Origin: Methanosphaera sp.
Lineage (GTDB): Archaea; Methanobacteriota; Methanobacteria; Methanobacteriales; Methanobacteriaceae
DNA: 61,150 nt
Direction of reading: 5' to 3'
Assembly (NCBI GenBank): GCA_017431845.1
Contig: JAFRKG010000148.1
Location: forward strand, 1-61,150
A program made the position numbers and the translations under genes. The notes below the pieces were generated by a model, which worked only from the letters and a program-made list of their open reading frames with translations, had not been told where the DNA came from and ran no database searches. Positions 5,981 through 24,269 of this stretch are shown here, one piece after another (the first letter of the stretch is position 1; every line of letters starts with the position of its first letter).

Positions 5981-8900
5981 ATGATTACAAAGAAAACAAA
6001 GCTAATATGCTTATTCTTAGTAATATTATTTATTTCTTTGGCTACCGTATCGGCAACGGATAACTCAAATACAAATAACCAAACAACCGATACCATAACA
6101 GACCATACTACAACAACAAGCCAAAGTAATATAATAACACAAGACAAAACAGTCAATGATAATTCCAAAAATAAAAAAACAGAATATAATAACATAAACA
6201 CTACCAACAATACAAAATCAATAAACAAAAAAGACACGACAACATATACCAAAACAGCAACAACATTCTCACAAGTATATGCAACACATGGTGGAGACGC
6301 ATCAGTTAACGGACAAGACATAAACAATCCAACAACATTCTACCATGCATTGCAAATCATAGGACAAAATGGTGTAATAAAATTTGTTAACAGAGATGAA
6401 GATGTTAAATATGAATTCAAATCACCTATATCCATTAACGATGTAGTTCTTAGTCAAGGGACAACAAAATTTACAATAACTGTTTCTGATCCGGACAGCG
6501 GACACAAATTAATATTTGATGGATTAAACCAATCCCAGTTATTCGTTATAGAAGATGGATATGATATTAAATTCCAATACGTTAACTTTGAAGACTCAAA
6601 TGCTACTGGAGATAAAGGTACCGTTAACGGTGGTGCAATATTTGCAGTGAATTCAAACATAACCTTCCAGTCATGTAACTTCACAAACACGCATGCCGTA
6701 GGTAATGGTGGATCAATATTCCTAAGTGGAGGAACAATAAACTTTGCATGGGATAATGTATTTACCAATTGTACCTCAAAATCAAATGGAGGAGCATTAT
6801 TCCTAGCAGGAACAGGTTATACAAAATTACATAACTTAACATTTGTAAACTGTAATGCAAGCACACATGGTGGAACAATCTTTGGAACAGGAGCATACTT
6901 CGACATTGACATGAACCATTTCATAAACTCCACATCAGGCGTAGATGGTGGAACATTCTACATAAATGGTGATTTAAAACTACATAACTCAGATGTTGAT
7001 AGAAGTTATGCCGGACGAGACGGTGGACTTATACACATAGAAAACGGAACTTTATACTTTGGATTATTAACTCTAACAGATAACCATGCAGGCCGTGACG
7101 GAGGAGCAGTATACGGAACAAACATTACATTCAACCATACATCCAACATTTACTTTTATAACAATACCGCAGGACGTGACGGAGGAGTATTCTATTTCAA
7201 CAACGTTACCACCAATAAGGGTGTAGTAACAACAGCAAATAACAACAGTGCAGGAAGATATGGTGGAATATACTACATATCCAATACAAACTTCACACTA
7301 CAAAACTTAGACTCAAATATAAGCAATGCCACATTTGGAGGAGTACTATATGCATTAAATTCAACAATTAATATGCAAACAGCCAATATTAATAATTCCA
7401 ATGCATCACGAGATGGTGGAATCATTTACTGTGAAAACACTAACTTTACATCACTCAGTAACTTCAGAACCATTAATTCAACAGCAGTAAATGGAGGTGC
7501 AATGTACTTCCTTAATTCAACCGCAACAGTTTCCAATGGAGCATCATTCACCAATTCAAAAGCTGAAGAGAATGGTGGAATGATCTACTGTGAAAACTCA
7601 ACATACCACTCATCAGGAAACGTACCTTATGTTAACGGTACTGCCGGAAACAATGGTGGAGCAATATATGCAACTGCCAATTCAGAAGTATCATTAAACG
7701 AAACTCCACTAAATACAAATACTGCCGGAAACAATGGTGGTGGAATATACGTTGACGAATCAACACTTTACATCCACATTAATGCCGCACCTGGAGTAGC
7801 AAATAACACTGCATTAAACGGTGGAGCAGTATATGCAACAAAATCAAACGTTACAATAAATTCTTCAAGTATTGCAGATAACAAGGCAACCGGAACCGAA
7901 ACAGGATCAGGTCTTGGTGGAGGAGTATATGCAGATGAATGTATTATAAACATTACTGGCGGACCAACCATCAGAAGTAACCGTGCAAACAATGGTGGTG
8001 GATTATACATAACCAATTCAAATGCATCCGTAGCAGCATCAATCATAGCAAATAATGCAACCAATAAAACTGAAGATCCATTAAATGAGAGTGGACTTGG
8101 TGGAGGAGTATATGTTGCATATTCCAATATTTCATTCGTTGGAAGTGGACAGTTTACAAGTAACACCGCATCCGATGGTGGAGCAATATATGCACTTTAT
8201 TCCGATTTATCAGGATTTACTGGTGCGGGCGGAGCTCACCATGTATCAAGAAACGGTGGATTAGTATATTTAAGTTATTCAAACTTAACACTGGCTAACA
8301 ACAACTTTAACGGAGGAACTGCTGGTGCAAATGGTGGTTCATTCTATGTTGACCATGGAAACTTAACATTAAACCACGTGTCATTATCCGACAACAAAGC
8401 TGGTGCAAATGGTGGAGCAATATATTCCGTGAACGGTACTGTAACTATTGACGGTGCCCAAAGTGGAGCCAATGTTGCAAATGGTTCAGGTGGATTCATC
8501 TATGCTATCGGAGAACAGAACAATCTTACATTAAACCATTACGGAATTAACATCAACAATGCAACAGAAAAAGGTGGAGCAATCTATAACGATGAAGGTT
8601 CATTAAATATTTATAACTCAGCTTTCCAGGCAAACTTTGCAAATCAGACCGGGGGAGCAATCTATAACAATGGAAAAGTTACTTCACAGAATTTAACATT
8701 CAGAAACAACCATGGAACCGAAGGAGGAGCAATCTATAACGATGAAAACAGTACTTTCATACTGGATAACTTCTACTTAGAATACAATAATGCAAATGTC
8801 TCAGGTGGAGCAATCAATAATATAGGTAATATGTCAATATACGATGGTGCTCTAGTAGGATCATGGACAGATGCAAATGCTTCAACAATATACAACAACG

Positions 8901-11900
8901 GATATCTTAATGCAACCGCATTTGCAATCACTAACAGTTATGGTCGAGGAGAAGGAGGTTATGGAAGCGTATACAATGATGTGAACGGTACTGTAATTTT
9001 CACAGGATTCGCTGCTTCAAATAACACCAACACTTATGCCGGATTTTTATACAATGAGGGAAACACTTCATTAGAATATGGTATAATTGAAAACAATACT
9101 GGACATTTTGGTGCCGGAGGTATATTTAACAACCATGGAGGAAACATATCCGTAAATGGAGTAAACATACAGAACAATACAATAGATTATTATCCTAGAA
9201 TAACTGGTGGACAAATATACAACAATGAATCAAACATTAACATAGAATATTCTTTTGTTGGAAATGATTCTAAACGAAATTTCGAATGGACCCCTATAGA
9301 TGCGGCAATAATAAATACAAATAATGCTAATATGACAATTAGCCACTCAGATGTTGCATACAACTCAAACAGGGCAATATTTAATGAAGAAAATTCCACA
9401 GTAATTATTAATCATTCAAATATTTATGAAAACAATGCAACAGAAGGACTTGATGGAGAAGATTTGAAAGGAGCTGCAATATACAATCGTGCAACTTTAA
9501 TAATTGCTAACTCATCATACTTCTATAACAATAATGCTGCAGAAAAGGGAGGAGCTATATATGAACAATCTTCATCATATGGAGAAGGAGAAAACATAGT
9601 CATCAAATTGACCAATACCACAATAACGGATAGCTTCTTTAGAAACAACACTGCAAAAAACGGTGGAGCTCTATACGAAGACGTGAACTGTTGGCTGGAA
9701 TACAGTAATTTAACCATTGATAATGCATCATTCCAGGATAACACGGCCGCAGAAGATGGTGGAGCAATCGCAACAAGCAATTCACCAATGAATATTAATC
9801 TAGTAAATTCAGAATTTAATAACAATACAGCAAAAAACGGTGGAGCAATCAATCTCCATAATGAATGGGATACAGTAATATTCGAAAATAACACGTTCAC
9901 AAATAACACGGCAACAGAAAACGGAGGAGCACTATATATTCACAACAACACCCAATTAAATTCAAATAATGACATGTTCATAAACAATTCTGCGAATGGA
10001 AATGGTGGAGCAATAGAAAATAAAGGAATATTAAATGTAGAAAATGGAGAATTTGATAACAACAAGGCAACCAATGGTGGAGCAATAGAAAATGAACGAG
10101 ATTTAAATGTTGAAAAATCAAAATTCACTAACAATAATGCTACAGAAAACGGAGGAGCAATAAGAGATTATACTTATAGCATATGGACAGAAAGTGGTAC
10201 AATAGCTACTTCAACAGTTACATCCATTAAAGATTCAGTATTCATAAACAACACCGCTACCAATGGTGGAGCAATAGATGAAAATCATAATGTAGAATCA
10301 TTATATGGTGGCGAATCAAGTAATTCATTACATGTTGATAACACGTCATTCATAAACAACTCAGCAACCAACGGAGGAGCAATTCGTGAAACATATCAAG
10401 CTTGGGATAGTTTAGATTCTAGTTTAGATACTTTAATCAAAAATTCCGAATTCATCAACAATACGGCAGAAAACGGTGGAGCTATATTCGAAGATTTATC
10501 CAACAATTGGAAACAGGACAATCCAAGTAAAGTTATTATTGAGAACACTACATTCAATTATAATAATGCTACTACTGGTGGAGCAATTAGTATAATTAGA
10601 GAAAAAGCAAATCCGGTAAATATAGCCGTAAGTGATTCATCATTTAATAATAACAATGCTACTGGAAACGGTGGAGCAATATACAATGACGCTACCATAA
10701 CAATAGATTCAAGTAGTTTAGATAACAACACAGCACATAACGGAGGAGCAGTATATACCACAGAAAATGGAACAACCATCATTACAGGCAGTAATTTAAC
10801 CAACAACTACGCATTTGATGGTGGTTTAATTTACAATAAGGGTAGTTTAAACTTGTCTGACAGTTATGTTGCAAATAACACTGCAGGTGATGCTGAAAAT
10901 CATAACTATGTGATTATTAATTATGGTGTAGATAATACATACTTTGCTGTTACTGGAAATTACTTCTATAATAACACTGCTAATTATGATGGTGATTATA
11001 GAGACATGTTAATGGAAAATTATGGAAGTAACAAAATATTAGTGAATAATAATTTGTATTATGACAATTACTTAGAAACTTCATTTGATAGTATTTATAT
11101 TGATGAAAATCAGAAGTTATTGTTCTCTACTATGAAGTTACGTGATATCTATAATGATACTGTTGTTTCAGGGGATGTGTTAACAAATATTACTCCTGAA
11201 GGTCAGACCAGTGTTAAAGTTAGTGAGCATTCTCCTGAGGAGTATAGCGTATCTGTATTGAATTTATCTAAATTGATTGATGATGGAGAAATCAGTCTTG
11301 ATGAAATATATGATGCATTTTATAGTTTATTCTATACTACATACAACATTGAAACTGAAGCTCCTAATAAGAATTACCAGAATGCTTCCATAGAAGGTTT
11401 AACTTTATTGAAAAGTAAGAAAACCACCATATCAGTTAGTGCTAATGATACTGTTGTTTTAAATGGCAGTTTTGTTAACGGTACTTTAATTGATGAAGAT
11501 GGTGTTGGTATTGCTAATGCACGGGTTAATCTAACATTCAATAATGGTACTTTCAGTACTGTTGTAATTACTGATGAAAATGGTAACTTTAACTATACTT
11601 TCATTACTAATGTAACTGGCGTTAATAATGTGACGGCATTGTTTAAAGGTAATGGTGCTTATACGACAAGTAATGATGAAACTACATTTAATGTGGTTCC
11701 TAGAAATTCAACTGTCACTGTAAGTGCTATTGAACCTGTGTTTGTTGGTAATGATACTGTTATTAGTGGAGTTTTAGTTGACCAGTATGATGATGTTATT
11801 GGAAACGCACCTATTAATATTACAGTAAATAATGGTACCCATACTGTGGTATTTAATACTGTAACGGATGCTGAAGGTAAGTATAATGTTACTTACAAAA

Positions 11901-14900
11901 CAGTTTATGGTGGAGTGAATAATGTAACTGCAGTTTATGTTGGTAATAGTACCTATAATCCAACAAGAGCTAACAATACGTTTACTGTAGACAAGTTAGA
12001 TACTTCAATTACTGTTGGTGCTAATGAGAGTGTGAAAGTTACTAAGAATGTTACTATTAATGGTACTTTAGTTGATCAGGATGGTAAATTTGTTCCTAAT
12101 GCTAACATTACAGTTATTGTTAACAATAATACTGTTATAGTCACAACTACTGATGCTGAGGGCAAGTATAGTGTTAATTACACCACTAATGTTACAGGTA
12201 AAAATAATGTTACCGTGAAATTTGATGGTAATGACACTTATAATCCTACAAATAACACTACAACATTTAATGTTGAAAAACTGGATACAAAAATATTATT
12301 AGATCAACCTGATGACACAGTATTCCATACTAATACAACAATTACTGGTATTTTACTTGATGAGTTTGATAGGCAAATCCAATTTGCAGATGTTACACTT
12401 ACCTTACCTAACGGCACTAATGTTACTGTGAGAACGGACAAGAACGGTAAATTTAATCATACATTATATAATGCTGTTCCGGGGTTAGTGAATGTTACTG
12501 CAACTTATGCTGGTAATGACACATATAATGGAAACAACACAACTAAACATTATATTGTGAACCCGTTAGATACTGTTGTTACTGTTAATGCTACAAGTCC
12601 TGTGAAAATCACCAAGAACACCACAGTCAGTGGAGTTCTAAAAGATGTTAACGGTGATGTCATAGCATTTGCCAATATTACCGTAACAATTAACAGCAAA
12701 CCATATAATAAAACTACTGATAAAAATGGTAAGTATGAAATTCCATATACTGCAAGTATGATTGGAACCAACTATTTAACAGTAGACTATAAAGGTAATG
12801 ACAGTTATAAACCGACATACAATGAAAATACATTTGAAGTGGTTCCATTAAATACCACCACAACCATCAGCAATATTCCGGACGTATTACCTGGCACTAC
12901 GGTTAATGTTAAAGGTACTGTGAAAGACGAGTATGGTAATTTAATGCCGGATGCCAACATTATCATAATCATTAATGAGAATATGATAATTCCTAGCAAA
13001 ACAAACGGTAACGGAGCATATAACATTGAATATACTCCAACAAAACCTGGTTCCCTGGTTGCTATGACAATATTTGTTGGTAATTCAACACACAATCAAT
13101 CAAATAATGTTACAAGAGCAACTGTCAAGAAGACTAATGTAACAGTTACTGTGGATTCTGTTAAAAACACCACAATAAATAATAAGACGGATATTACTGG
13201 TAAAGTAACTGATGAATATGGTAATCCTCTGCCGGATACTAATGTAACAATCACATTGCCTGATGGAACAAATATTACGACCAAAACAAACAATAAAGGA
13301 GAATATAATAGTACTATTGACAATAAGATTACAGGAAATGTAACAGTTAAAGTTGAATTTAAAGGTAACAGCACACATGAAGCTTCAACAGCTACAACCA
13401 CTTACAATGTACGTAAATATAATGTATCAGTTACAGTTAGTGCAACCAGTCCTATAAAAATCTCTAAAAACACTACCATTACCGGAACTCTTAGGGATGA
13501 GACAGGTAAAGTTATCCCTAATGGGGGTCTAGTGTTAAGTGTTGATGATGTGAAATTTAATGTGACTACCGATAAAAATGGTAACTATAAACTGGATTAC
13601 ACAACTGATAACCTTGATAAAGCAGTTGTTACTGTATGGTTTAAAGGAGATAATGTATATAACAGTGCATTTAACATGACTACATTCAAAGTGTTACCTT
13701 TAACTACCACTACAACAGTTAACAAAATAAGTGACGTCACACCGGATACGAAGGTTACTATTACCGGAAACGTTAAAGACGAGTTTGGAAGATTAATGGC
13801 AAATGCTGATGTGAAAATAATTGTCAGCGATAATGAGATAATTAATACTAAAACCAATAATAATGGTCAGTACAGTATTGTTTACACCAACACTTCCAGT
13901 GAAGCTCACAAATCAGTTACTCCAGTATATATGGGTAACAGTACTCATTTATCATCATTAGCCACTACCGGATTTAATATACGTAAAATTAATTCCAAAA
14001 TAACAGTTAATGTACCTGAGGAAGTTACTGCAGGTAAACCTATGAATATTACTGGTAAATTAACTGATGAAGCCGGTAAACCTATCGTTAACAAAAAAGT
14101 TATCGTGAACGTAAATGGTACTGAAATTACTGTTACAACTGACAATAACGGTAATTATAAGGCCACTTACACTCCTACACAGGCTGGTACCTTACCTGTA
14201 AGTGTAACTTATCCTGGAGATAACACTTATAATCCTGCAAATGCTACTGGCAAAAATGCTATAGTAAAACGTATGAACACTAGCATAACCATAAATCCTA
14301 TTAAGGATACTGCTATTGGTAATAAGTCTAATGTTAGTGGAAAATTAACTGATGAAGATGGAAAACCGTTGGCTAATGTGCCTGTAACTGTAACTTTACC
14401 TGATGGATCAACTATCAGTACAAGGACAAATAACAAAGGAGTTTATAATGTAATCATAGATAATGATGTTGTGGGTAATGTTACTGTTAAAGCTGAAGTT
14501 AAAGGTAATTCATCCCATGCAGGTTCTGTAATGGAATTTGTTTACAATGTACGTAAATTAAATACCATTGTTAGTGTTGAATCCATTAAGGGTATTGTTG
14601 GTGAAAAAATTACATTGGTTGCAAGTGTAACTGACGAATATGGTAACCCTGTCAGTGGTGGTAATCTCGTATTTAAATTAAATGGAATTACCCTGAAAAC
14701 TGATGGCAGATTTGACACTAACAAGGCACCTCTTAAGATACATGTGGATAATGGTAAAGTGACATTTACTATAACGGCAGATTTATACTTACGTAATACT
14801 AAGAACATTACCGCTTCTTACAGTGGTTCATATAAGTATAATGCCAATAAGTCTAAAGTAGCTCAAGCACAAATACAGCTCAGATACATGAATATTAAAG

Positions 14901-15547
14901 TAAAAGTTTCACCGAAAGTTGCTAAACAGTACCAGACTGTTACTTTTACTGCAACAGTATCTGATGTTACTAAAAAGGCCACTAATAAAACAATTATTAA
15001 TCAGGACGCATATGTAATCTTTAAGATTAATGGAAATTCATTGAAAGACAAGAATGGAAATATAATTTACACCAAAGTTGTTAATAAGACTGCAACCCTT
15101 AAGTATACAATTCCACGTGGTACTGCAGGCTTATGGAGTGGAACATTAAATACCAGAAAGTATGAAGTGGAAGTTGTTTATGCTAACGATAATTTCTATC
15201 CGGTAAACAATAAGAACACTACATCTTATGGTGTTGAAAGATCTCCAGTAAACATTACTTTCAAGGAAACTAAGATAGTTAATCATTATCTTTCAATTAA
15301 AGCAACACTTAAGGATCTTAAGGGCAAGAATCTTTTAGGTACTAACAAGATTTGTCTTAAAATTAATGGTAAAACTTATAGCATAAATAATGAAACTATG
15401 TACTATTATGTTAAAGATGGTGCAGTGAGCATTAATGGTATTTACATTGATAATCCTGCCAAGATTACCAGTGTTGGAATCGTTAGCGGTGATCGTGAGG
15501 CTTATTTACCTGCACGTGCAACTACCAAGAAAATCGTTAAAAGTTAA
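5981..15547 (+). CDS. giant adhesin-like surface protein (Pmp repeats plus Ig-like repeats)
   Basis: A 3188-residue exported protein rich in Asn, Thr and Gly. Residues about 5-26 form a signal peptide (LICLFLVILFISLATVSA), followed by an Asn/Thr linker to about residue 90. From about residue 218 to 1615 there are dozens of short beta-helix rungs with the chlamydial Pmp-type motif (NNTAxxNGGAI). From about 1805 to 2960 there are about twelve Ig-like units of roughly 95 residues, each with a core such as TxxGxLxDExGxxxxxAxVxV and ending in YxGNxTYxxS. Two diverged units follow to the C-terminus. There is no C-terminal membrane anchor or sortase-like signal, so the attachment mode is unclear. 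The likely role is adhesion to host cells or other microbes. Base and codon use change near 10.8 kb (see findings). Confidence 0.85.
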   Translation: MITKKTKLICLFLVILFISLATVSATDNSNTNNQTTDTITDHTTTTSQSNIITQDKTVNDNSKNKKTEYNNINTTNNTKSINKKDTTTYTKTATTFSQVYATHGGDASVNGQDINNPTTFYHALQIIGQNGVIKFVNRDEDVKYEFKSPISINDVVLSQGTTKFTITVSDPDSGHKLIFDGLNQSQLFVIEDGYDIKFQYVNFEDSNATGDKGTVNGGAIFAVNSNITFQSCNFTNTHAVGNGGSIFLSGGTINFAWDNVFTNCTSKSNGGALFLAGTGYTKLHNLTFVNCNASTHGGTIFGTGAYFDIDMNHFINSTSGVDGGTFYINGDLKLHNSDVDRSYAGRDGGLIHIENGTLYFGLLTLTDNHAGRDGGAVYGTNITFNHTSNIYFYNNTAGRDGGVFYFNNVTTNKGVVTTANNNSAGRYGGIYYISNTNFTLQNLDSNISNATFGGVLYALNSTINMQTANINNSNASRDGGIIYCENTNFTSLSNFRTINSTAVNGGAMYFLNSTATVSNGASFTNSKAEENGGMIYCENSTYHSSGNVPYVNGTAGNNGGAIYATANSEVSLNETPLNTNTAGNNGGGIYVDESTLYIHINAAPGVANNTALNGGAVYATKSNVTINSSSIADNKATGTETGSGLGGGVYADECIINITGGPTIRSNRANNGGGLYITNSNASVAASIIANNATNKTEDPLNESGLGGGVYVAYSNISFVGSGQFTSNTASDGGAIYALYSDLSGFTGAGGAHHVSRNGGLVYLSYSNLTLANNNFNGGTAGANGGSFYVDHGNLTLNHVSLSDNKAGANGGAIYSVNGTVTIDGAQSGANVANGSGGFIYAIGEQNNLTLNHYGININNATEKGGAIYNDEGSLNIYNSAFQANFANQTGGAIYNNGKVTSQNLTFRNNHGTEGGAIYNDENSTFILDNFYLEYNNANVSGGAINNIGNMSIYDGALVGSWTDANASTIYNNGYLNATAFAITNSYGRGEGGYGSVYNDVNGTVIFTGFAASNNTNTYAGFLYNEGNTSLEYGIIENNTGHFGAGGIFNNHGGNISVNGVNIQNNTIDYYPRITGGQIYNNESNINIEYSFVGNDSKRNFEWTPIDAAIINTNNANMTISHSDVAYNSNRAIFNEENSTVIINHSNIYENNATEGLDGEDLKGAAIYNRATLIIANSSYFYNNNAAEKGGAIYEQSSSYGEGENIVIKLTNTTITDSFFRNNTAKNGGALYEDVNCWLEYSNLTIDNASFQDNTAAEDGGAIATSNSPMNINLVNSEFNNNTAKNGGAINLHNEWDTVIFENNTFTNNTATENGGALYIHNNTQLNSNNDMFINNSANGNGGAIENKGILNVENGEFDNNKATNGGAIENERDLNVEKSKFTNNNATENGGAIRDYTYSIWTESGTIATSTVTSIKDSVFINNTATNGGAIDENHNVESLYGGESSNSLHVDNTSFINNSATNGGAIRETYQAWDSLDSSLDTLIKNSEFINNTAENGGAIFEDLSNNWKQDNPSKVIIENTTFNYNNATTGGAISIIREKANPVNIAVSDSSFNNNNATGNGGAIYNDATITIDSSSLDNNTAHNGGAVYTTENGTTIITGSNLTNNYAFDGGLIYNKGSLNLSDSYVANNTAGDAENHNYVIINYGVDNTYFAVTGNYFYNNTANYDGDYRDMLMENYGSNKILVNNNLYYDNYLETSFDSIYIDENQKLLFSTMKLRDIYNDTVVSGDVLTNITPEGQTSVKVSEHSPEEYSVSVLNLSKLIDDGEISLDEIYDAFYSLFYTTYNIETEAPNKNYQNASIEGLTLLKSKKTTISVSANDTVVLNGSFVNGTLIDEDGVGIANARVNLTFNNGTFSTVVITDENGNFNYTFITNVTGVNNVTALFKGNGAYTTSNDETTFNVVPRNSTVTVSAIEPVFVGNDTVISGVLVDQYDDVIGNAPINITVNNGTHTVVFNTVTDAEGKYNVTYKTVYGGVNNVTAVYVGNSTYNPTRANNTFTVDKLDTSITVGANESVKVTKNVTINGTLVDQDGKFVPNANITVIVNNNTVIVTTTDAEGKYSVNYTTNVTGKNNVTVKFDGNDTYNPTNNTTTFNVEKLDTKILLDQPDDTVFHTNTTITGILLDEFDRQIQFADVTLTLPNGTNVTVRTDKNGKFNHTLYNAVPGLVNVTATYAGNDTYNGNNTTKHYIVNPLDTVVTVNATSPVKITKNTTVSGVLKDVNGDVIAFANITVTINSKPYNKTTDKNGKYEIPYTASMIGTNYLTVDYKGNDSYKPTYNENTFEVVPLNTTTTISNIPDVLPGTTVNVKGTVKDEYGNLMPDANIIIIINENMIIPSKTNGNGAYNIEYTPTKPGSLVAMTIFVGNSTHNQSNNVTRATVKKTNVTVTVDSVKNTTINNKTDITGKVTDEYGNPLPDTNVTITLPDGTNITTKTNNKGEYNSTIDNKITGNVTVKVEFKGNSTHEASTATTTYNVRKYNVSVTVSATSPIKISKNTTITGTLRDETGKVIPNGGLVLSVDDVKFNVTTDKNGNYKLDYTTDNLDKAVVTVWFKGDNVYNSAFNMTTFKVLPLTTTTTVNKISDVTPDTKVTITGNVKDEFGRLMANADVKIIVSDNEIINTKTNNNGQYSIVYTNTSSEAHKSVTPVYMGNSTHLSSLATTGFNIRKINSKITVNVPEEVTAGKPMNITGKLTDEAGKPIVNKKVIVNVNGTEITVTTDNNGNYKATYTPTQAGTLPVSVTYPGDNTYNPANATGKNAIVKRMNTSITINPIKDTAIGNKSNVSGKLTDEDGKPLANVPVTVTLPDGSTISTRTNNKGVYNVIIDNDVVGNVTVKAEVKGNSSHAGSVMEFVYNVRKLNTIVSVESIKGIVGEKITLVASVTDEYGNPVSGGNLVFKLNGITLKTDGRFDTNKAPLKIHVDNGKVTFTITADLYLRNTKNITASYSGSYKYNANKSKVAQAQIQLRYMNIKVKVSPKVAKQYQTVTFTATVSDVTKKATNKTIINQDAYVIFKINGNSLKDKNGNIIYTKVVNKTATLKYTIPRGTAGLWSGTLNTRKYEVEVVYANDNFYPVNNKNTTSYGVERSPVNITFKETKIVNHYLSIKATLKDLKGKNLLGTNKICLKINGKTYSINNETMYYYVKDGAVSINGIYIDNPAKITSVGIVSGDREAYLPARATTKKIVKS
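6635..10830 (+). repeat. Pmp-type short repeats coding for NGGAI rungs
   Basis: The motif encoding Asn-Gly-Gly-Ala-Ile (DNA core AATGGTGGAGCAAT or AACGGAGGAGCAAT) recurs throughout at irregular intervals of about 60-130 bp. It is usually preceded by codons for Asn-Asn-(Thr or Asn)-Ala. Repeats are degenerate at DNA level but several share runs of 15 or more bases, so slippage or unequal recombination is possible. Confidence 0.8.
11400..14870 (+). repeat. tandem Ig-like domain repeats, about 285 bp each
   Basis: About twelve tandem copies code for beta-sandwich units. Each begins with an alternating T/V strand (TxITVxA), then a GTLxDExGKPI-type turn, a DxNGNYxxxYT strand and a final FxGNxTYNPT strand. 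Copies are diverged at DNA level. They probably act as a stalk that projects the beta-helix away from the cell surface, or toward the wall. Confidence 0.75.
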
Positions 15548-19907: not shown

Positions 19908-19925
19908 ACATGAGAGTTGTTTAAA

Positions 19926-21095
19926 ATGGGATTTATACGAGATAGTATTCATGGTGACTTGCATTTAACCGATTTTGAATTAAAAATTATTGATACTGTT
20001 GAAATGCAAAGACTAAGAAGAATAAAACAATTAGGTTTCACAAACTTAGTGTATCCTGGTGCTAATCATACACGTTTTGAACATTCTATAGGAACATTAT
20101 ACTTAGCAAACAAAGTAGGACAAACATTAGGATTAGACAATGAAGTAATATCATTACTACGAGTATGTGGATTATTACATGATATAGGACATTCACCATT
20201 TTCACACGTATCAGAAAAAGCATTAAAACACAAACATGAATATGTGACCAAAGAAATAATAGCAAATTCAAGCATCACAGATATTATTGAAGAACAATTT
20301 GATGTAAAACTTATAAACAGTATTGTTGATGGAAAAACAAAATTTGGTAAGATAATATCTGGAGATTTAGATGTAGATCGAATGGACTACTTAGCAAGAG
20401 ATTCCTATTATACTGGTGTTGCATATGGCGTAATAGATACTGAACGATTAATATACAGTTTAACATATAATGAAGACAAACTTGTACTTACACCAAAAGG
20501 AGTTCAAGCAGCTGAATCAACATTACTTGCAAGATATTTTATGTATCCTACAGTATACCAACATCATACAACAAGAATTGTCAATAGTATGTTCAAAGTG
20601 TCATTGTCACGATTATTAGAAGATGGAACTGTTACTGAGGAAGAATTAAGGTATTTGGATGATGGTGATTTAATAAATATTACTAGAAATACAAAAGGAT
20701 TACCAGAACAAACTATGAAAAATTTAGATACTCGACATTTATATAAGAAAACAGATACTATAAACTTAGCCCAATTCAATGATCCATCAGCAATAGTAGA
20801 AATGGATGAAAAATATTTAACAGAAGCAGAAGAAGAAATAGCTAAGAAATTAGATATAAAACCTGAAGAAGTTATAATAGATATGCCAGAAGAATTATCT
20901 TATAAAAAAATGAATGTTCAAGTAGAAACATCATATGGATTAAAACCTTTAACCGAAGTTTCAACAATAATTGATTCATTGAAAAAAGCTCAGTATAATT
21001 ATGCTGATTTAGCATTATTTATGTCACCAAAAAATAAAGAAAAAGCAATATCAAAAAATATTAAATTAGAAGATTATATAACCTTACCTAATTAA
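19926..21095 (+). CDS. HD superfamily phosphohydrolase (SAMHD1/dGTPase-like)
   Basis: A 389-residue HD-domain protein. It begins GFIRDSIHGDLHLTDFE and LRRIKQLGFTNLVYPGANHTRFEHSIGT, which is the signature of the YdhJ/SAMHD1-like group. The metal-binding HD is in LLHDIGHSPFSH, with the last Asp in GDLDVDRMDYL. It is likely a (d)NTP triphosphohydrolase or another phosphohydrolase; the substrate is not proven. The start is placed at 19926 because the TTG at 19917 would sit only four bases after GAG and lies outside the conserved N-terminus. It is in an operon with nadM. Confidence 0.88.
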   Translation: MGFIRDSIHGDLHLTDFELKIIDTVEMQRLRRIKQLGFTNLVYPGANHTRFEHSIGTLYLANKVGQTLGLDNEVISLLRVCGLLHDIGHSPFSHVSEKALKHKHEYVTKEIIANSSITDIIEEQFDVKLINSIVDGKTKFGKIISGDLDVDRMDYLARDSYYTGVAYGVIDTERLIYSLTYNEDKLVLTPKGVQAAESTLLARYFMYPTVYQHHTTRIVNSMFKVSLSRLLEDGTVTEEELRYLDDGDLINITRNTKGLPEQTMKNLDTRHLYKKTDTINLAQFNDPSAIVEMDEKYLTEAEEEIAKKLDIKPEEVIIDMPEELSYKKMNVQVETSYGLKPLTEVSTIIDSLKKAQYNYADLALFMSPKNKEKAISKNIKLEDYITLPN

Positions 21096-21860
21096 TATTT
21101 AACTATTTTTTTTATTATGTTAACAAATGAAAACATCAATAAAACATGGCATTTTGTAATATCATCTCCCCCTTAAATATTAAAATATAAGTTATTTTTA
21201 GTATATTTGCAATGTAAATTGGGGATCAAATATTTTAAAAAGTTAACAAAGACATCAAATATGTTAACTAAATAATTTTATCAAAACATATATTAAAAAA
21301 AGTTTACAAATAGTTAAATAAGATTAACAAAACGTTTTAAGTTTGTTAACAATTATGGAGCATATAAAATCAGAGTATATGTTATGATGGAAAAAAAGTT
21401 AATTGTTAACAAAAGTTAACTTTATGTAAATAGAGTAAATAGAACGTAAGTAGGATATAAAGTATTAAAAATAGATCTAAAAATATAATGTTAACAAAAT
21501 GTTAACAATAATTTTGGTGATAACATATGATAACAAGATGTTTTAAAAATAAAAATTTATGTTAATATTATAAAACATTTTGAAAACATTTGTTAACAAC
21601 ATTTATATAGTAGTACTCACAAACTTAGTTACAAGAAAGAAATGTTAACAAGATGTTAACTAAAAAAATATTTATAAAAAAGGTAACTAGATTGAGTACA
21701 GATAGAACAAAGGTTCACAGATACAATAGAATATCAGTATACTTTAACAAGATAAATAATTGTTAACAAATTGTTAACATACCATTTCCTGTTAACAAAA
21801 ACTAAAACATATGTTAACACTATTTTTTAATATAATTAATTTAGCTAATGGTGAATTATT
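21096..21860. other. 765-bp gene-free region packed with GTTAAC palindromes
   Basis: There is no convincing ORF on either strand. The region is dominated by GTTAAC sites (listed as a repeat), with degenerate versions such as GATAAC at 21519 and 21529. The last 40 bp hold a TATA-like element (about 21823-21835) and GGTGA before the ribbon-helix-helix gene. It is the densest non-coding repeat in the window. Confidence 0.8.
21119..21818. repeat. cluster of 15 GTTAAC palindromes, many in helically phased pairs
   Basis: Exact GTTAAC begins at 21119, 21242, 21263, 21345, 21405, 21415, 21490, 21501, 21592, 21644, 21655, 21762, 21773, 21791 and 21813. Most are within the longer palindrome TGTTAACA. 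Six pairs are spaced 10, 11, 11, 11, 21 and 22 bp start to start, that is, one or two DNA turns. From base composition I would expect about 0.2-0.3 GTTAAC in such a length. This arrangement indicates cooperative protein binding on one face of the helix (inference). The spacers differ, so it is not a CRISPR. Confidence 0.85.
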
Positions 21861-22754
21861 ATGACATCTGGTCAAGCTACTGCAAGAATTAAAAATATTG
21901 AAGAATGGCATAAGTTTAAAAAAAATGCTGAAACTAAAGGAATTAAAATTGGTGAAGCATTAGAAAGTATATTAGTAGCATATAATGAAGATAAGTTAAT
22001 AGACATTAACGAATATGAAAAATTAAAACAGGAAATTACTACTTTAAAAGAAAAGATAGAAATAGATGAAAATAAGTTACATGATATACAAGAAAAAAAT
22101 AATATTTTAGATAAAGAAGTAGCAGACCTAAATAATAAGATTTCACTATTAAATAATGAAAATAAAATATTAAAGTCAAATAATTCTGATATCAAAAATA
22201 AGTTAAATGAGTCAGAACAAGCAAATAAAAAAATTACTGAAGAGAATAATCAACTAAAAATTATAAAAAATAATAAAGAAAACACTGATTCAAAATTACA
22301 TGAAACCTTAGAAAAAATAGAACAACTAGAAAATGAGAACAAAAAACTAGAAGATCAAAATAAAACAATTGAAGAAAACAATCACAAACTAACCGAAGAA
22401 AACATAAAATTAAAAGGAAACTCTGATATACCTCTAAGAGAAAAAGAATTACTTCAAAAACAGTACGATAACTTAGAAGAGTTATATGAAAATTTAAAAA
22501 ATGAAAATACTGTTTTAAATGAATCATTGAAAACATTAACAGAAGAATTAAAACAACAACAAAAAGACACTAGAACAGCAAGAAGTGATTATAAACACAT
22601 AGTAGAAAATTTAAACAAATTACATGAAGAATTCAATGATGTTCAAAATGAAAATAAAAAGTACAATGTTATGTTCGCAGAAATCAAAAAGATGTCCATA
22701 ATGGAACGTATTCTTGGTAAATATCCTGAAGATATTAAAGAATTAAAATCTTAA
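21861..22754 (+). CDS. predicted ribbon-helix-helix DNA-binding protein with long coiled coil
   Basis: A 297-residue protein. Residues 5-45 (ATARIKNIEEWHKFKK, KGIKIGEALESILVAY) look like a ribbon-helix-helix domain: a short basic strand, a helix, a turn and a second helix. Residues about 50-270 are an almost continuous heptad-like, Glu/Lys/Asn-rich coiled coil (NENKILKSNN, EENNQLKIIKN, LENENKKLEDQN). A short C-terminal segment follows (MSIMERILGKYPEDIKELKS). There is no ATPase or membrane segment. It lies 43 bp after a dense cluster of GTTAAC palindromes, which would suit an RHH dimer that binds palindromes in cooperative arrays. Possible roles are partition or nucleoid-bridging factor, or autoregulator. 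It is monocistronic and converges on guaB. The fold call is by eye. Confidence 0.6.
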   Translation: MTSGQATARIKNIEEWHKFKKNAETKGIKIGEALESILVAYNEDKLIDINEYEKLKQEITTLKEKIEIDENKLHDIQEKNNILDKEVADLNNKISLLNNENKILKSNNSDIKNKLNESEQANKKITEENNQLKIIKNNKENTDSKLHETLEKIEQLENENKKLEDQNKTIEENNHKLTEENIKLKGNSDIPLREKELLQKQYDNLEELYENLKNENTVLNESLKTLTEELKQQQKDTRTARSDYKHIVENLNKLHEEFNDVQNENKKYNVMFAEIKKMSIMERILGKYPEDIKELKS

Positions 22755-22778: not shown

Positions 22779-24269
22779 TTATCTAGGATGATAATTAGGA
22801 CTTTCATTAGTTATGGTTATATCATGTGGATGACTTTCAGACATACCATTAGGAGTAATATGAACTAATTCTGCTTTTTCATGCATTTCCTTTATAGAAG
22901 AAGCTCCAACATAACCCATTGAAGATTTTAAACCTCCCATTAGTTGATAAACTATTTGACTAGCTTCTCCTTTATATGGAACAACTCCTTCTATTCCTTC
23001 AGGCACTAATTTTGTAGAATTCATATTACTACTACCTGATTGGAAGTATCTGTCTTTACCAGCACCAACTCCTCCAGTCATAGCTCCTAGAGAACCCATT
23101 CCCCTATATTGTTTGTATTTTCTACCATTTCTAATAGTCATTTCACCAGGAGATTCAGTGGTACCAGCTAATAAACTACCTACCATTACAACATTTGCAC
23201 CAACGGCTAAAGCTTTAGCTATATCCCCAGAATATCTTAATCCACCATCAGCAATAACAGGAACATCATAATCTGAAGCAACATCTGCTACACTGCTTAC
23301 AGCACTTAATTGTGGTACTCCTACTCCGGCAACAATACGTGTTGTACAAATAGAACCTGGACCTATACCTACTTTTATACCATTAATTTCAGCTTTTAGA
23401 ATATCTTCTGCAGCTTTTGCAGTTGCAATATTTCCTAGAAGAATATCTGATTCTACGTTTTTATTCATTTCACGTACTGATTCTATAATATCTGTTTTAT
23501 GTCCGTGAGCACTGTCAATTGCTATAAGATCTGCTCCAGCATCACTTAATGCCATTGCTCTGTCCATGTCAAATGGTCCACATGCTGCAGCAACTAAGTA
23601 TCTTCCTTTTTTGTCACGAACGGCGTTAGGATATTTTTTTCTTTCAAGGATATCTTTCATTGTAACAATACCAACTAGTTCATTGTTATCTGCAACTACT
23701 GGTAATCTTTCAACTTTGTTTTCGTATGCTAAATCCAATGCAGATTCTAAATCAGTATTTTCAGTTATAGTTACTACGTTATGTGTCATAGCTTCTTGAA
23801 TCTTACGATTCATATGTTTTCCTTGTAATGGTTTGATATCTCTTCTACTGATAATACCAATAACTATATTATTTTCATTGACTACTGGTAATCCACTTAC
23901 TCCTTCCATATCCATAATTTCTTGAGCATCTGATACAGTTTCTTCGGGAGATATGGTTATTACTTCTTTAACTGTTAGTTCATTAGCATATTTTACTTTT
24001 TTAACTTCTTTTACTTCTTGTTCTATAGTTAAGTTTCTATGAATTACTCCAAGTCCACCTTGTCTTGCTAGTGAAATTGCCATGTCAGATTCTGTTACTG
24101 TATCCATAGCAGAACTCATTAATGGTATGTTTAAATCAAAATTGGTAGATACTTTGGTTTGTAATGTTACATCTTTAGGTTCTATGCTGGATAAACCTGG
24201 TTTTATTAGAAAATCATCAAATGTATAAGTATCTTCTGCTTTGGTTAATTTGTCTGTAAATTTACTCAT
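22779..24269 (-). CDS. guaB: inosine-5'-monophosphate dehydrogenase
   Basis: A 496-residue IMP dehydrogenase that converts IMP to XMP with NAD, the committed step to GMP. The TIM barrel starts with [17 protein letters not shown] pair of CBS domains is inserted at about residues 95-210 ([38 protein letters not shown]). The catalytic loop [18 protein letters not shown] carries the active Cys, and [10 protein letters not shown] is the flap region. Length is normal. GGGG lies ahead of the ATG. It is single, with an 80-bp gap to mfnB downstream. Confidence 0.96.

Follow-up and report, generated by a model that had tools for sequence, protein, structure and literature searches.

A phased palindrome array and its coiled-coil gene in Methanosphaera: a candidate single-protein partition or anchoring module

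The palindrome array and its neighbourhood

Methanosphaera are gut methane-making archaea. The window analysed here, the whole 61,150-nucleotide stretch of a Methanosphaera contig, contains an array of GTTAAC palindromes in front of a gene encoding a 297-aa protein (Table 1). The array ends 42 bp before the start of this gene, and both lie between an HD-domain gene and a guaB-like gene, the product of which we take to be an IMP dehydrogenase. The HD-domain and 297-aa protein genes both run rightwards and the guaB-like gene beyond them leftwards; the initial annotation, which had argued from gene polarity against an ordinary bidirectional origin at this place, had misread these orientations. 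Further to the left, the window also contains a gene (5981-15547) for a 3188-aa repetitive, surface-protein-like product.

Table 1 Coordinates of the array, the adjoining genes and related site pairs (window positions, unless a locus is named)
Feature	Position	Strand	Basis
HD-domain gene, left flank, outside the module, marks the insertion place	19917..21095	+	
Fifteen-site GTTAAC array (mostly TGTTAACA); putative targets of the 297-aa protein	21119..21818	.	
Site pair, spacing 10 bp	21405..21420	.	
Site pair, spacing 11 bp, TGTTAACA-N3-TGTTAACA	21490..21506	.	
TATA-like box TTTATATA within the array, candidate promoter of the 297-aa gene	21602..21609	+	
Site pair, spacing 11 bp, just 3' of the TATA-like box	21644..21660	.	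alignment
Site pair, spacing 11 bp	21762..21778	.	alignment
297-aa protein, putative array binder: ribbon-helix-helix-like (RHH-like) N-terminus 1-42, coiled coil ~49-276, conserved tail	21861..22754	+	
C-terminal conserved region, residues 224-297, common to paralogues	22530..22751	+	
guaB-like gene, right flank, outside the module	22779..24269	-	
Extra GTTAAC pairs in CbiZ-like gene (G006, G015)	L040:10824-10840; L042:2638-2654		
Extra GTRYAC pairs of G008, G018, G004	L044:8405; L046:9505; L047:5856		

A count gave 15 exact GTTAAC sites in 700 gene-free bp, as initially annotated, with site-to-site distances of 123, 21, 82, 60, 10, 75, 11, 91, 52, 11, 107, 11, 18 and 22 bp. The six short spacings reported at first (10, 11, 11, 11, 21 and 22 bp) are correct, and one of 18 bp joins them. 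Across the window GTTAAC occurs 38 times against 19.6 (s.d. 4.3) in 100 shuffles of the window, which yield about 0.22 sites per 700 bp, within the range of an earlier hand estimate of 0.2–0.3; elsewhere in the window, any 700 bp contain four at most. All seven GTTAAC pairs of the window's own assembly that are 10–22 bp apart fall in the array, as do 7 of the 11 such pairs in the near-complete genome G060, which belongs to the same species. TGTTAACA has 163 copies in G060; the array accounts for 11 of the matches listed (100 of 163, up to 1.39 Mb), among which no second cluster is present. Equally dense clusters elsewhere had been named at the outset as an argument against a special locus, and there is no second one in the window either.

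Chance or composition could in principle produce such words in an A+T-rich intergenic region (~20% G+C here), but the enrichment has a z of 54, where 30 dinucleotide shuffles give no more than 10.5, and sites and phase are kept in relatives while the sequence between the sites diverges. The probability of an artefact of this kind is practically negligible.

Linkage, helical phasing and the downstream protein

Orthologues of the 297-aa protein were identified in G005, G006, G009, G012 and G015 (67–74% identical) and in G060 (99%). In all seven genomes, the window's own included, the gene sits between the HD-domain and guaB-like genes with no ParA gene adjoining it, and in all seven it is accompanied by the array; the motif is thus retained in relatives that share the gene order, the comparison that the initial annotation had proposed. 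Seven relatives that lack the gene here (G003, G004, G007, G008, G013, G014 and G018) have 0 or 1 GTTAAC, and no cluster, in ~4.2 kb around the HD-domain gene, with the guaB-like gene in view in six of them. G006 and G015 have an extra ~100-aa ORF between the gene and guaB. These two genomes also carry an extra 11-bp-spaced GTTAAC pair inside a nearby CbiZ-like gene, ~100 bp before its 3' end.

The seven intergenic regions (own included) contain 15–19 GTTAAC each, over 600–860 bp. The six arrays that come from different species give 70 neighbour distances no longer than 60 bp, which are not independent counts because the arrays share descent. Of these, 43 are 10, 11 or 20–22 bp (random placement, 2000 draws: mean 7.5, maximum 17) and 27 are 10–11 bp (mean 3.4, maximum 11). 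Longer steps also cluster near multiples (29–31, 40–43 and 50–52 bp), and the vector length of the six arrays at 10.5 bp is 0.84 against a random maximum of 0.38. For the window's 15 sites alone, absolute phase over 700 bp is weaker (best 0.55, at 10.4 bp).

An alignment of the seven genomes has a TATA-like sequence at the position of the window's candidate promoter, and the sites around it keep their places: the pair just 3' of it is found in 7/7 at a spacing of 10 or 11 bp, and two sites occupy the position of the pair starting at 21762 in 7/7, 20 bp apart in G009. Distal sites and the intervening sequence have turned over, yet the distal sites stay in phase. Autoregulation of the 297-aa gene is plausible, since the TATA-like box lies inside the array. 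The stretch 21690-21745 (GAGTACAGAT...TTCACAGATAC), between two groups of sites, has no GTTAAC and is partly conserved in the seven genomes; it is possibly a leader or another binding site. An Rfam search of 20900-22000 with E up to 1 gave no match.

Pfam and NCBIfam returned sub-cut-off matches of the coiled-coil kind for the 297-aa protein, with no initiator domain in either and no RHH match in Pfam. Its AlphaFold2 model (mean pLDDT 82; residues 1-7 below 50) predicts a non-helical segment 1-12, helices 13-25, 30-42, 49-185 and 193-276, and two short tail helices. Both this arrangement and the alternation of residues in ATARIKN suggest an RHH-type reader at the N-terminus. The full model is compatible with a strand-helix-helix order; the model of residues 1-55 alone is incompatible, residues 3-25 being one helix instead of a strand, and it has no PDB fold match. 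Aligned by hhalign, the N-terminus reached a probability of 24% with CopG (E 0.0008, 39 columns) and 0.1% with Arc, and no RHH chain is present among the PDB profile matches; the RHH assignment is thus not confirmed by these comparisons. Matches of the tail to PDB sequences were weak, the best (E 0.023) being to a designed helical protein.

Relatives with other DNA words

A relative of the 297-aa protein with an upstream array is encoded at a different locus in each of G004, G008, G014 and G018, close to what is presumably a phosphosugar mutase-like gene. Three of these proteins are 74–80% identical to that of the window over the last 74 residues and 35–39% identical over the first 50. The 558–947 bp upstream contain 16–21 sites of the forms GTATAC, GTACAC/GTGTAC and GTAAAC/GTTTAC, many in 11-bp pairs. 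GTRYAC-N5-GTRYAC pairs number 4–6 in each of the four genomes, inside the array for all 4 of G014 and for all but one in G004, G008 and G018, and the remaining 16 genomes searched have 0–2 apiece. The window's word and that of the second clade have TGT..ACA in common and differ in two central bases. In this comparison, therefore, reader and word differ together and the tail remains similar. G008, G018 and G004 each have one extra 11-bp GTRYAC pair outside the intergenic array, inside a neighbouring gene.

The design recurs on pNP174, a plasmid of the window's species (Methanosphaera sp. ISO3-F5), where 30 TTACC occur within the 891 bp before the paralogue WP_323737601.1; of their spacings, 29 in all, 17 are 10–12 bp and five are 20–23 bp. 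Contig C175 of the window's own assembly has the same paralogue and iteron arrangement, and the family match on the second contig of G060 has coordinates equal to those of the match on the ISO3-F5 plasmid. The plasmid gave no match to the ParA family PF13614, and none to an actin- or tubulin-type motor among the 9 plasmid proteins scanned; MCM and primase are also encoded there, neither adjoining the module. A second array, of 16 TGTGCTAC/GTAGCACA repeats, lies at ~120.1–120.7 kb of pNP174 (L131:12600-13164), 3' of the paralogue and before a TelA-like gene.

The array could instead be an oversized operator, by which the coiled-coil protein represses its own promoter, its real job being elsewhere in the genome. 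The TATA-like box in the array, the retention in position of the sites around it above all others and the commonness of lone TGTTAACA sites, as counted in G060, accord with this explanation, but the number and extent of the sites go far beyond the needs of a one-promoter repressor, distal sites turn over without losing phase, and the plasmid counterpart has its 30 iterons. We consider an operator unlikely.

Beyond these cases, a search of 20 genomes of the genus by tail profile identified members of the protein family in 18, G002 and G010 (97–98% complete) being without one by this profile. Weaker tail-profile matches occur in six other genomes of the taxonomic family (24/138 in total) and in one more of the order (25/150 in total). 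The only plasmid records with relatives are two versions of pNP174; phage records contained none, and of 395 pattern matches in viral contigs none was confirmed. Upstream 7-mer enrichment with z of at least 21.8 was found for 18 of the 44 family genes with at least 400 bp upstream, near copies (G000/G060, G008/G018 and C175/pNP174) being counted among the 18, and for 1 of 221 controls, which include two missed family members (L185, z 19.0; L195, z 15.6). The sole control to reach 21.8 is a purine-rich stretch in the window. Genes outside the 44 are those missed by the tail pattern (G014 1005 kb, G016, G071, G029 and G000 C120), those with too short an upstream region (G001 C54 and G004 C4) and the weaker tail-profile matches.

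The other 26 genes, at least two of which (G000 C178 and G001 C61) start within a longer frame and carry no information here, have no clear upstream array, and the array is therefore not a property of the whole family. They include the common ~245-aa type, in which no array was seen upstream except in G003, where an AAGTATG repeat is weak (z 14.4); the G003 protein had been considered for the window type, and the alignment places it in the ~245-aa type. For the longer RKSIQIK type, the repeat seen in G007 is weak (GCAGATA, z 15.5), whereas G017 has a clear set of TGCAACATT. Modest repeats precede two more family members, one in G014 (TAAAACA x18, L185 upstream of 2545, minus strand) and one in another genus, G071 (CATACCA x5, L195 upstream of 5288, plus strand); on account of these, the design may reach beyond Methanosphaera.

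A centromere-like reading

We propose that array and gene form a portable single-protein, centromere-like module for partition or anchoring, and put the probability of this at roughly 0.55. A motor-less centromere best accounts for the co-occurrence of gene and array, the joint difference of reader and word, the conserved tail and the 11-bp plasmid iterons without ParA. The same comparative evidence, with the retained phase, fits what was suggested initially, namely that a palindrome-binding protein acts cooperatively here on a centromere-like or heavily autoregulated target; the binding and segregation parts of that suggestion are what we infer. Dimers of the protein would bind the palindromes via the RHH-like N-terminus, and a spacing in multiples of ~10.4 bp would set them on one face of the helix, so that their long coiled coils could project jointly in one cluster. 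The conserved tails may dock on a shared host partner (a ParA-type ATPase, the nucleoid, the membrane or the division apparatus), in which case the array-carrying DNA would be held or distributed at division; sites around the TATA-like box would autoregulate the gene. With reader and word varying and the tail similar, one partner could serve the chromosomal and the plasmid copies with no cross-talk between them. The chromosomal copy may serve in segregation, in anchoring or merely in DNA organisation.

A wider and more tentative proposal, for which we would not claim even odds, is that of an undescribed archaeal class of motor-less partition modules, with varied readers on a coiled-coil rod, arrays of their own and one partner. 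If such a class exists, plasmids and chromosomes of one cell would use parallel, non-interfering centromeres.

By analogy, the module would work like pSK1 Par, RacA or RocS, probably with another DNA-binding fold. The centromere of pSK1 Par is reportedly rich in repeats and situated upstream of its gene; here as there, one gene is present with no motor gene beside it. Par of this staphylococcal plasmid is described as an N-terminal DNA-binding domain, namely a winged helix-turn-helix of the MerR type, followed by a central coiled coil and a C-terminal region (PMC11500499). The predicted architecture of the 297-aa protein (N-terminal domain, coiled coil, C-terminal region) agrees with that layout; Pfam gave no match to a MerR-type winged helix-turn-helix, and residues 1-42 are modelled as a segment and two helices. 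Unlike pSK1 Par, the present module is archaeal, is also chromosomal and has a proposed RHH-like reader, the likeness being one of architecture. RacA of Bacillus and RocS of Streptococcus are chromosomal proteins described as having a DNA-binding domain, a coiled coil and a C-terminal anchoring part, and RacA binds repeated centromere-like sequences (PMC11500499). Both have winged-helix readers, in contrast to the RHH-like reader proposed here, and RocS has a membrane amphipathic helix.

In archaea, the RHH protein SegB is reported to bind palindromic sites, of which two precede its own operon, with the ParA protein SegA encoded beside it and SegB sites scattered over the chromosome (PMC12284271). 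Repeated palindromes near the gene of a (putative) binding protein are common to SegAB, ParABS and the present locus; the last differs from SegAB in having its sites packed into a single dense array and no ParA gene next to that of the putative binder. Arrays of short repeats also lie near the genes of the ParG, omega and ParR kinds, plasmid systems which encode a ParA or ParM motor. Those are small RHH proteins devoid of the coiled coil and tail, and no motor was found here. For ParG, the RHH assignment is given in PMC5016525.

No report on such a module was found among the literature matches listed, and the words 'partition' and 'segregat' are absent from the main text of the ISO3-F5 genome announcement (PMC11008217). 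The genus has a cultured, completely sequenced member, ISO3-F5, and the module is compact, comprising a defined DNA word, one candidate binder and natural variants that differ in word and reader. To our knowledge, the segregation of chromosomes and plasmids in methanogens is largely open. With these features, and with a plasmid version the stability of which can be measured, the module makes archaeal partition directly testable. The same holds for the recognition code that links a small reader domain to its palindrome, and the conserved tail should retrieve the host partner. A portable handle with different words on chromosomes and plasmid may help to move or anchor DNA at division.

The position of the module in the genome bears on two further alternatives. 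Between the related module and cdc6-1 there are ~287 kb in G008 and ~321 kb in G014, and in G014 the module is away from the minimum of the GC skew (near 0–0.1 Mb; maximum near 0.65–0.83 Mb; sampled in 20 stretches of 20 kb). Skew analysis had been suggested by the initial annotation for recognising an origin or terminus; neither the sampled skew nor the cdc6 positions support one, and such a role is not likely. A role as replication iterons, in which the array would serve as an origin or in copy control and the protein would be the initiator or a handcuffing factor, would agree with the iteron-like 11-bp repeats on a plasmid that encodes MCM and primase. Against this stand the distances from cdc6-1, the lack of an initiator domain in the Pfam and NCBIfam searches and the location of the plasmid MCM and primase genes away from the module, and we regard it as highly improbable.

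PF13614 gave one strong match in each of four genomes, 17–23 kb from cdc6-1 in three of the four, and ParA matches are distant from the module in the genomes searched; along the 2,506 kb of G060, the window's module lies at 470 kb and the strong ParA match at 2,487 kb. With its own ParA near cdc6-1, the chromosome would not depend on the module alone. This ParA, the 26 family genes with no clear array and the two nearly complete genomes devoid of the family all weigh against an essential role. An organiser or anchor of one chromosomal region, which we would call RacA- or MatP-like, perhaps a domesticated plasmid partition module with no role in segregation, is an explanation that suits this separate ParA, the chromosomal location away from cdc6-1 and the optional presence of a module that moves between loci. 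Among the matches listed, however, one cluster was seen and not many dispersed ones, and the same design occurs on a plasmid; we find a pure organiser quite unlikely. The G060 locus L197:6331-7476 has a ParA-type gene followed by that of a 122-aa protein, which has no Pfam match and starts with MAEGSLGRGLDALI, to our eyes similar to a ParB N-terminus; the two are possibly the main chromosomal partition pair. Because G060 has this ParA-type gene and 122-aa protein, and two nearly complete genomes do without the family, the module is accessory.
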